From an uncultured Candidatus Poseidoniales archaeon (lineage in GTDB: Archaea; Thermoplasmatota; Poseidoniia; Poseidoniales; Poseidoniaceae), in contig CAJJCP010000014.1 in NCBI GenBank assembly GCA_905182715.1, positions 17,408-81,407 on the forward strand: a DNA stretch of 64,000 bases, read 5' to 3'. Positions 61,656-64,000 of the stretch are shown one piece after another. Numbering within the stretch: position 1 is the stretch's first letter; each line of letters starts with the position of its first letter. Made by a program: the position numbers and the translations under genes. Under the pieces are notes generated by a model, which saw nothing but the letters and a program-made list of their open reading frames with translations, was not told where the DNA came from and searched no databases.

Positions 61656-62405
61656 TCAGTCTTGGTGTGGCTTGAGTTTAACCATGCGAATGAGTGTCAT
61701 TATTCGTAAGAAAAGATAGCCGATATCAAAACCTCCAAAATTCGCATTACCTGGAGTCCGGTGGTGTTCCGCATGATTTCCTTCACCCATGGTAAGCATT
61801 GCACTTGGTAGGAAATTACGTGCTTCTGTATTTGGGTCATCTCTTGAACCAACCAAATGAGAGATTGAATTAATTGAATCTCCGATGTTGTAAAACAATA
61901 CCGTAATCGTCCAGCCAAGAGCAATACCAAACCATCCGAGTTCAGCATAGAAGAAGTAGAATGGCAGAAGATGAGACAGTGCAAGTATGAAATTCACTGG
62001 CCTACGACTCATGAGTTTCAACAATGGTCTATCCAAGTCCTTTGGCAATTCTTCTGGAAAGGTTTTCCAAATGAAGGGGTCGATCATTGTGCGAATCGGC
62101 CCTGCTATGGCATACAGTATGGCGACTATGGTGCTGCTTGTAGAGAGATACCAGCCACAATGTGCATGCCAGAAGCCACCAAAATACGGGGAGTGAGGGT
62201 CGTCCGCTGTATCCGTAGTTTTGTGATGGATGCGGTGATTCAGTGCCCATTGAATTGGTGGCCCAGCCGGTGTTCCAGCGTATACTAAGATATACTTCAA
62301 TACTGAATTTGATTGAAATGAATTATGGGAAATGAGGCGGTGAGTGCCGAGTGAAACGCCAAGGCCGATGAAGATATACCAAACGATCAAAAGACCGTAC
62401 ATCAT
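61656..62405 (-). CDS. Fatty-acid desaturase (acyl-CoA delta-9 type)
   Basis: Histidine boxes HRLISHNSF, HRIHHKTTD, EGNHAEHH plus TM helices. Confidence 0.9.
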   Translation of the reverse strand: MMYGLLIVWYIFIGLGVSLGTHRLISHNSFQSNSVLKYILVYAGTPAGPPIQWALNHRIHHKTTDTADDPHSPYFGGFWHAHCGWYLSTSSTIVAILYAIAGPIRTMIDPFIWKTFPEELPKDLDRPLLKLMSRRPVNFILALSHLLPFYFFYAELGWFGIALGWTITVLFYNIGDSINSISHLVGSRDDPNTEARNFLPSAMLTMGEGNHAEHHRTPGNANFGGFDIGYLFLRIMTLIRMVKLKPHQD

Positions 62406-63325
62406 TGATTCTTCAGCCCCAATTTAGAACGCGTTCTTTCAAGATGGGCGTGGGCGTGTTCGACGAAAAAGCCATGCATAAGGAATCGATAAGAGAGGCC
62501 TGTTGGACCAACCAGAATCATTGGGAAACGGTTGTGGGCTAGGTCTGCAAAGTGTGCGGCTCCAACAATTTCATCAATCCGTAAACCGACTGAGTGGTCG
62601 AATTGAAACGAGTTAATGGCCGCCTCGTATTCTTTGGCCGTCAGCCAAAAACAAAACGTGGTTTTGAATAATTCATGGGCTGTTTCAAAATCGAGGAACT
62701 GCGTCCATTTCTTCCGCGAAGGCGAGTGTTGGATGTCAACTGGGGTCCAATTTGTCCATTGTAACTCCTCTTCGGCGATTGGCCAATTTCCGCCTTTCAT
62801 CTCACCTAAATCACGCATGGTCATCAAGACGCCTTGATCGTGGTGAACGAACGTTTGGACCATGAGGTCACTGATTACTTTCGGGTAAATGAGAACAGGT
62901 TCGACGCCTTCTTTTCCAGAATTGTCAATCACGAAATTCAGCAGATTGCTCTCGGTTTGAAAATGTCGAAGAATCAAAATATTGGCTTCTGGACGAACGA
63001 AGTGTTTCATAAAAAAGCATATTTGCCATTGAAGGAATCTATGCGCCCTCCATTGAATCGGAGAAAGGCGCTTGAGGTAATAGGTGATGTGAAGGGTAAT
63101 GCTGAGAAGGATTTTCAAGGTTGGTAAAATAACCACCCGTAATGGATTTTGCAGATCTTTAAGCCAGTATTCTTTGGCTTCCAAATCCAATGGAAGGCTG
63201 TCATCGCCACTCAATGCATCGCTCAGTGATGCTGGCATTCTTCCGTGATTTTTGGCGAGAGCTTTTGCCAGGCGGCGTTGAGCACGTTGCTCTTTACGCG
63301 ATACTGTTGATTTACTGGATGTCAT
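62402..63325 (-). CDS. Uncharacterised protein coupled to the desaturase
   Basis: 307 aa; overlaps the desaturase start by 4 nt and the upstream gene by 14 nt; contains a hydrophobic stretch VVILPTLKILLSITLHITYYL. Confidence 0.7.
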   Translation of the reverse strand: MTSSKSTVSRKEQRAQRRLAKALAKNHGRMPASLSDALSGDDSLPLDLEAKEYWLKDLQNPLRVVILPTLKILLSITLHITYYLKRLSPIQWRAHRFLQWQICFFMKHFVRPEANILILRHFQTESNLLNFVIDNSGKEGVEPVLIYPKVISDLMVQTFVHHDQGVLMTMRDLGEMKGGNWPIAEEELQWTNWTPVDIQHSPSRKKWTQFLDFETAHELFKTTFCFWLTAKEYEAAINSFQFDHSVGLRIDEIVGAAHFADLAHNRFPMILVGPTGLSYRFLMHGFFVEHAHAHLERTRSKLGLKNQ

Positions 63326-64000
63326 ATTCTATTTCCTCCAATTGTAATCGGTAGAGTCGGGCAACAACTTTCGAGGTTTTCACAATACTTTTTATTGCTT
63401 TTTCATTCACACAAACACTGTTCAACGTTGCATAAAAGCGCTGCATATGGTCGCTGTCATTTTCTCCATGGTACGTCATGAATCGAGTGGAGTCTTCAGA
63501 CAGTCCGGTAAGTTCTTGGATTCGTTCAGCCCATGAATTCGCCATCTTTTCTCCGAGACCTTCAATGATCCACATTGCGCCGAGTAAGTCGATTGGATTA
63601 GGACGAGAGGAACGGTGCATGAGGAATCCGTGTAAGGCTTCTGAACCGATATTACGCTCCATGTTGAGGATGTCTTCGAGTTGGCCCCCTGATGCAACAT
63701 AATCTTTCTCAAGCATCTCATAATCGCGATGCTCATCGACGGCGTGACTGATAATTGTTGACCGGATTTCGGAATGGTCCCGGTCAAAACTACTTGCAGT
63801 CCGTGTAATCCAACGAGAACCTTCGATGACCTGTTGGCGGATGTTTCTCAAAAATATTTGATGATCTTCCGCTGTATAGGTGCCGAGATCAATTCGGCGA
63901 AGAAGAGGGACTTTGGATAAGTCTCGCTCAAAACCAAGCCAAACGCGAAGTAATTGTTGGAGGCAAACTTGGGCATGCGGGTTCAGTATAACTCCTTCAT
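63312..64000 (-). CDS. Heme-oxygenase-like (possible HO-like diiron/TENA-PqqC-fold) protein, N-terminus off the right edge
   Basis: Frame open to the edge: EGVILNPHAQVCLQQLLRVWLGFERDLSKVPLLRRIDLGTYTAEDHQIFLRNIRQQVIEGSRWITRTASSFD...HAVDEHRDYEMLEKDYVASGG...TYHGENDSDHMQRFY. Confidence 0.6.
   Translation of the reverse strand, partial: EGVILNPHAQVCLQQLLRVWLGFERDLSKVPLLRRIDLGTYTAEDHQIFLRNIRQQVIEGSRWITRTASSFDRDHSEIRSTIISHAVDEHRDYEMLEKDYVASGGQLEDILNMERNIGSEALHGFLMHRSSRPNPIDLLGAMWIIEGLGEKMANSWAERIQELTGLSEDSTRFMTYHGENDSDHMQRFYATLNSVCVNEKAIKSIVKTSKVVARLYRLQLEEIEYDIQ

Follow-up and report, generated by a model that had tools for sequence, protein, structure and literature searches.

A minus-strand locus at the end of an archaeal contig

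The window, a 64,000-nucleotide stretch of DNA from an uncultured Candidatus Poseidoniales archaeon, carries three minus-strand genes at its end, here called C, D and E (Table 1). The first-pass annotation described overlaps of 14 and 4 nt between them, and the coordinates of the open reading frames agree: C and D share positions 63312-63325, and D and E are joined through an ATGA. A GGAGG site lies 9 nt upstream of the gene D ATG. All three are real genes, each matching its family above the Pfam gathering cut-off, and the arrangement recurs in dozens of genomes and is therefore not a product of chance. Because the window stops at the end of contig C14 (position 81407), gene C lacks about 21 N-terminal residues (complete copies in relatives have 249 aa) and the operon runs upstream off the contig. 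The relatives are metagenome-assembled genomes (MAGs) of Candidatus Poseidoniales (Marine Group II); in the closest of them, 9 kb can be aligned with the window, with 86-89% identity.

Table 1. Features of the locus, in window coordinates.
Feature	Position	Strand	Description
Gene C	63312-63998	minus	5'-truncated by the contig end; predicted heme-oxygenase-fold, HDO-like non-heme dimetal-type protein
GGAGG, Shine-Dalgarno-like site for gene D	63335-63339	minus	Within the 3' end of gene C; found by sequence inspection
Gene D	62402-63325	minus	DUF6999 (PF22523); helical, with one hydrophobic N-terminal helix
ATGA overlap	62402-62405	minus	4 nt; stop of gene D and start of gene E
Gene E	61656-62405	minus	E1 type; SCD-like membrane acyl-CoA desaturase (PF00487 and His boxes)

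The trio belongs to a larger, conserved operon

In the flanks of 16 relatives from the same archaeal family, two further genes, A then B, lie directly upstream of C. The window trio is the 3' part of this conserved operon, A-B-C-D(-E), and A and B are probably lost here to the contig break. Neither gene is found in the window's own assembly, which consists of 36 contigs and is 73% complete. It also lacks a single-copy archaeal polymerase gene, the direct upstream neighbor of the operon in relatives, which makes an assembly gap likelier than a loss of A and B from the genome.

When 85,462 species genomes are scanned with an alignment of DUF6999, the family of gene D, 78 loci emerge: 44 archaeal, all in Poseidoniales, 33 gammaproteobacterial and one in a Myxococcales MAG. 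Because relatives were picked up by means of two peptide patterns, the scan covers one portion of the family. The order A-B-C-D is kept on one strand in 77 of the 78 loci, the last being cut off before A, and the median gaps between A and B, B and C, and C and D are -4, -4 and -14 nt. The first-pass annotation had proposed that the trio is co-translated and that its synteny elsewhere be checked; conserved order, overlapping genes and recurrence in other genomes support its being an operon. Its view of the trio as a unit holds in that the set is conserved elsewhere, but the desaturase is the variable part, being of the E1 type, of the E2 type or absent.

The gammaproteobacterial carriers include Rheinheimera, Arsukibacterium, Alkalimonas, Vibrio rumoiensis, Shewanella and relatives of Halomonas, among others, and the same four genes A-D occur on a Pseudoalteromonas megaplasmid. 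Caulobacter vibrioides has hits to DUF6999 and PF14518 and a StlD/DarB-like hit as well. A sample of Pseudomonadota DUF6999 genes is a test that is not biased by neighbors. DUF6999 is present in 9 of 399 sampled genomes, and all nine genes adjoin B and C: six follow a B::C fusion, one (G523) stands in a B-C-D set, and two (G668 and G296, the latter being the Vibrio genome of locus L042) complete A-B-C-D. In the six fused loci, B and C form one protein of 626-655 aa, followed by DUF6999. An E2-type desaturase precedes B::C-D in every one of them, itself preceded in five by a fatty-acid hydroxylase (PF04116).

Several of these neighborhoods hold further genes. The G523 locus (L145:3697-10713), which lacks A, is flanked by a TetR regulator and by an 1133-aa MFS/acyltransferase/AMP-binding (Aas-like) protein that suggests acyl activation. 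Eleven Rheinheimera-type loci carry a gene of ~291 aa resembling alpha/beta-hydrolases downstream of D (e.g. L050:8849-9724), in eight cases directly after it. On plasmid pNFSY08 of Nostoc flagelliforme (L041:3756-6468), a broken, unannotated relative of the fused form (KAS::HDO plus DUF6999), with interrupted frames, lies beside a cytochrome P450.

Genes A and B

Gene A encodes a His-rich membrane protein of ~190 aa with about four hydrophobic segments and a set of invariant residues (D26, H30, E36, E43, H47, H81, E82, H86, D88, E102, H104 and H106). Nineteen representatives match no Pfam family, and no solved relative and no profile match were found; that protein A is one of the known fatty-acid hydroxylases or desaturases is therefore rejected.

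Gene B encodes a 378-aa type III ketoacyl synthase (KAS III). Among solved structures StlD is nearest to it (E=6e-71, compared with 2e-9 for FabH). Gene B itself lies off the window's contig; throughout its relatives, fused forms included, the triad C124/H294/N329 is kept. It shares the KAS III fold and the Cys-His-Asn triad with StlD/DarB of the stilbene, dialkylresorcinol and flexirubin clusters (PDB 5gk0), and the motifs FLRWMLSDGAGA, HYSS, NTGSAS and a PESGRF-type motif align between them. The best NCBIfam model is that of the StlD/DarB family (NF005293), which gene B of locus L025 matches at 382 bits, under the cut-off of 450. Five bacterial loci score 356-390 bits, and every gene B tested stays below 450, in the range 350-390. 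Since the family cut-off is never reached, ring formation cannot be assumed. The partners differ too: StlD/DarB clusters pair the ketosynthase with DarA or StlC, whereas gene B has DUF6999 and an HDO-like protein, in some cases fused to it, as its companions, and near it no second conserved partner other than A, C and D is found. A 44%-identical ketosynthase on a plasmid of Streptomyces sp. NBC_01383 (L147:8721-14539) stands beside an ACP, an FAD-dependent oxidoreductase and FabF, and represents a cluster of the StlD/DarB kind in which the oxidative partner is another one.

Gene C, a predicted heme-oxygenase-fold protein with an altered putative ligand set

Gene C matches PF14518 (Haem_oxygenas_2; E=3.5e-9, 37.2 bits against a gathering cut-off of 28.9), as do 18 of 21 gene C representatives at E <= 0.01. 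In a sequence search of the PDB, the only meaningful match is 3dde (Sden_3740 of Shewanella denitrificans; E=8.5e-6). The AlphaFold2 model (pLDDT 87, pTM 0.83) retrieves the same structure first in Foldseek (E=4.9e-8), followed by CADD (7.7e-6) and UndA (2.8e-4). Its TM scores are 0.79-0.85 to 3dde and about 0.66-0.69 to both UndA and CADD, and TenA and heme oxygenases are matched as well. The predicted structure is thus the helical, heme-oxygenase-like fold of the HDO proteins. 3dde is the closest solved structure in both sequence and fold, at an identity of 19-20%.

Eight residues are conserved across 86 aligned sequences, fused forms included: E80, H106, E110, D113, E167, H198, D202 and H205 (L117 numbering). 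The metal ligands of MboA include Glu86, His89, Glu143 and His181 (PMC13185094). When gene C is aligned to 3dde and MboA, E110, E167 and H205 fall on Glu86, Glu143 and His181, and H198-x3-D202-x2-H205 corresponds to 3dde. The His of the E-x2-H motif, which is His89 in MboA and a His in 3dde too, aligns with the invariant Asp113, so that gene C reads E-x2-D. The neighboring H111 was considered as a stand-in ligand and rejected, being Gln in the fused forms while E110 and D113 are invariant. Gene C thus departs from the canonical 3-His/3-carboxylate HDO set, E-x2-H ... E ... H-x3-D-x(2-4)-H, and for this reason we call it HDO-like. Judged by its conserved residues, it would be a dimetal enzyme with a set leaning toward two His and four carboxylates. 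It resembles the HDOs UndA, CADD, SznF, BesC and MboA in fold and in the E ... E ... H-x3-D-x2-H residues, and differs from them in D113 and in its ketosynthase operon or fusion. With an invariant Asp in place of the His, ordinary HDO chemistry is not assured. The first-pass annotation took this protein for a heme-oxygenase or diiron type and asked whether a structure prediction would show metal-binding residues; the 3dde-type fold and invariant metal-type residues support it, with D113 at the place of the canonical His. Neither of the two outcomes that it had named as refuting, a lack of synteny or of metal-binding residues, was observed.

Two other roles for gene C were considered. One is a hydrocarbon route of the UndA kind, in which B would supply a β-keto acid or elongated acyl chain, C would turn this into an alkene or ketone by oxidative decarboxylation, and the desaturase would set the unsaturation. 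The model matches both UndA and CADD, and a ketosynthase beside or fused to C would provide the acid. We nevertheless consider this route unlikely: in sequence and fold, 3dde and CADD resemble gene C more than UndA does, gene C has Asp where UndA has the His of E-x2-H, its ketosynthase is like StlD/DarB (6e-71) and not like the OleA-type 3-oxoacyl synthases (about 6e-4), and the operon has no thioesterase.

The second role is protection from oxidative stress, or metal storage, in place of biosynthesis. Marine surface archaea face reactive oxygen, an exposure that would suit it. A stress role has been proposed for an HDO-domain protein, Acinetobacter DtpC (PMC13232832). Since C can be fused to a ketosynthase and is strictly linked to B, to desaturases and to a hydroxylase, such a function for gene C is very improbable.

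Gene D, a member of DUF6999

The first-pass annotation recognized no family for the middle protein, but gene D is a clear member of DUF6999 (PF22523; 297 bits, cut-off 27; E=1.4e-88). The structure prediction that it had recommended gives a helical AlphaFold2 model with a pLDDT of 85, for which the PDB holds no fold match (best E 1.4). Ten residues are conserved across all classes (R120, H121, H162, D163, D212, N238, D243, R280, H284 and E289), and as a set they look enzyme-like. The idea that DUF6999 might be a diverged HDO or desaturase is rejected, as hhalign gives a probability of 1% for D with C and of 0.06% for D with the E2 desaturase, in line with the missing fold match. H121 ... H162-D163 ... 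D212 is reminiscent of an HD domain, but the confident model matches no HD-domain structure, and that assignment is not claimed. A search of viral contigs found no relative of DUF6999, and viral carriage is rejected. No paper that we found in the open-access literature names DUF6999, and the gene neighborhood described here gives the family its first functional context.

Gene E and the desaturase slot

Gene E is a desaturase of the SCD type. It matches PF00487 (E=8.2e-15, 55.7 bits against a gathering cut-off of 29.7) and carries the three His boxes together with the N-x3-H motif (H22-x4-H27, H57-x2-H60-H61, N179-x3-H183 and H211-x2-H214-H215), all of which align with SCD1 (4ymk; E=1e-16), in keeping with the three-His-box desaturase named at first pass. 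It differs from SCD1 in its shorter N terminus, its operon setting with a ketosynthase and an HDO-like protein, and its archaeal host.

A desaturase directly follows D in 31 of the 44 archaeal loci. Eleven are of the SCD type found in the window (E1), and 20 belong to a second type (E2), a PF00487 desaturase unrelated to E1. Among the 13 archaeal loci without one, five end at or just after D and eight are real absences. The Myxococcales locus has an E1-type desaturase upstream of A, and no desaturase adjoins A-D in the Gammaproteobacteria. Two non-orthologous desaturases filling one slot argue that the desaturase belongs functionally to the system; the slot argument does not show it to be essential, given the Gammaproteobacteria that lack one beside A-D. 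These bacteria and the eight complete archaeal loci without a desaturase would also fit a reading in which A-D alone are the system and the desaturase is an unrelated neighbor. That reading is improbable in view of the ATGA coupling of D and E in the window, the occupation of one slot by two different desaturases across 31 archaeal loci, and the E2-type gene beside B::C-D in six of six fused loci.

Further PF00487 desaturase genes lie elsewhere in the same archaeal genome (G000:C3:47413-48208 and C3:82045-82665; L001, L002 and L004), the first possibly broken, as a second match contains stops. In one relative (G194; L028:2426-3577), the next gene after the desaturase, in the same orientation, encodes a protein resembling Fea1 (low-iron-inducible), a possible link to iron.

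Origin and spread

In a tree of gene B, all 44 sequences from archaea group in a single clade (100/100), joined outward by the Myxococcales MAG (96/80), then the Gammaproteobacteria and then the fused forms; the tree is rooted by midpoint, and some of its branches are long. Gene D occurs in 27 of 114 genomes of Poseidoniaceae, in 4 of 11 genera. A single transfer from bacteria to Poseidoniaceae, followed by inheritance with many losses, fits these sequence data best. Contamination of the MAG with bacterial DNA is rejected, as the 44 archaeal loci are one clade and the GC3 of the window region matches its neighbors. The first-pass annotation remarked that acyl desaturases are atypical for archaea with isoprenoid lipids; the operon is not limited to archaea and appears not to be archaeal in origin.

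A proposed pathway to an oxidized lipid

Taken together, A-B-C-D(-E) probably forms an O2-dependent pathway that makes an oxidized lipid from fatty-acyl chains. The proposal builds on computed gene order, fusion, families, conserved catalytic or ligand-type residues and the gene B tree; from these we infer the order of the reactions, their chemistry and the product. Gene B would join two acyl thioesters and, like its relatives, might close a ring of the cyclohexanedione type. Gene C would then act on that product with O2, by oxidizing it, desaturating it or decarboxylating it oxidatively. The strongest argument for consecutive steps is the B::C fusion found in many bacteria. Gene E, and in other bacteria also the fatty-acid hydroxylase, may introduce double bonds or hydroxyl groups into the alkyl chain or an acyl precursor. 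Gene A could be a tailoring or electron-transfer component of the membrane, and gene D an accessory or catalytic subunit.

The first-pass annotation suggested an undescribed acyl or lipid oxidation module. The module is conserved, and no description of it was found, but it is larger than the trio, comprising A and the ketosynthase B. The presence of a ketosynthase makes biosynthetic condensation plus oxidation a better reading than a pure oxidation module. No paper that we found in the open-access literature, which includes few subscription journals, describes a DarB/HDO or a ketoacyl/HDO/desaturase cluster. The operon is real and conserved, and it appears to be bacterial-derived, biosynthetic and undescribed.

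A more specific form of this explanation is a new HDO-based route to a dialkylresorcinol, cyclohexanedione or quinone-type lipid, in which B would form the ring and C would aromatize or hydroxylate it, as DarA does elsewhere. StlD is the closest solved relative of gene B and shares with it the family motifs and the triad. In known pathways of the StlD/DarB type, oxidation or aromatization comes after ring closure, an order that suits an oxidative-type enzyme C fused to B. Gene B scores under the StlD/DarB cut-off, and we regard this route as possible but doubtful. A further version, which we put forward tentatively, is a new biosynthetic pathway common to bacteria and archaea: an Asp-substituted, heme-oxygenase-fold diiron enzyme, partnered with a ketosynthase or fused to it, would yield an aromatic, quinone-like or otherwise oxidized dialkyl lipid.

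The host archaea do not build their membrane lipids from fatty acids. The operon may lead to a new kind of lipid in them, and it bears on whether they make non-isoprenoid lipids. If the dialkyl-lipid pathway is true, Marine Group II archaea would gain a specialized lipid derived from fatty-acyl chains, and two new families of enzymes, DUF6999 and protein A, would be added. The fused ketosynthase-HDO architecture and an HDO-like family whose putative metal ligands are altered are subjects for study in their own right, and the cultured carriers (Rheinheimera, Arsukibacterium, Pseudoalteromonas, including sp. THAF3, and Vibrio rumoiensis) make the function of the operon testable.

Acyl chains could be supplied by a multi-ACP megasynthase or by scavenged fatty acids. 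A marker of such a megasynthase (PP-binding) is present in 106 of 114 Poseidoniaceae genomes, often in frames of ~2,900-3,000 aa; no paper found in the open-access literature joins Poseidoniales, polyketide synthase and fatty acid. Outside the window, the same genome holds a multi-ACP locus resembling PKS and PUFA synthases (G000:C15:53600-63000; L151:8629-17983). This locus contains a KS, an AT, a second KS-like protein, four PP-binding domains, a KR, a DH and a PPTase, and its KS and AT are apparently split in this assembly.
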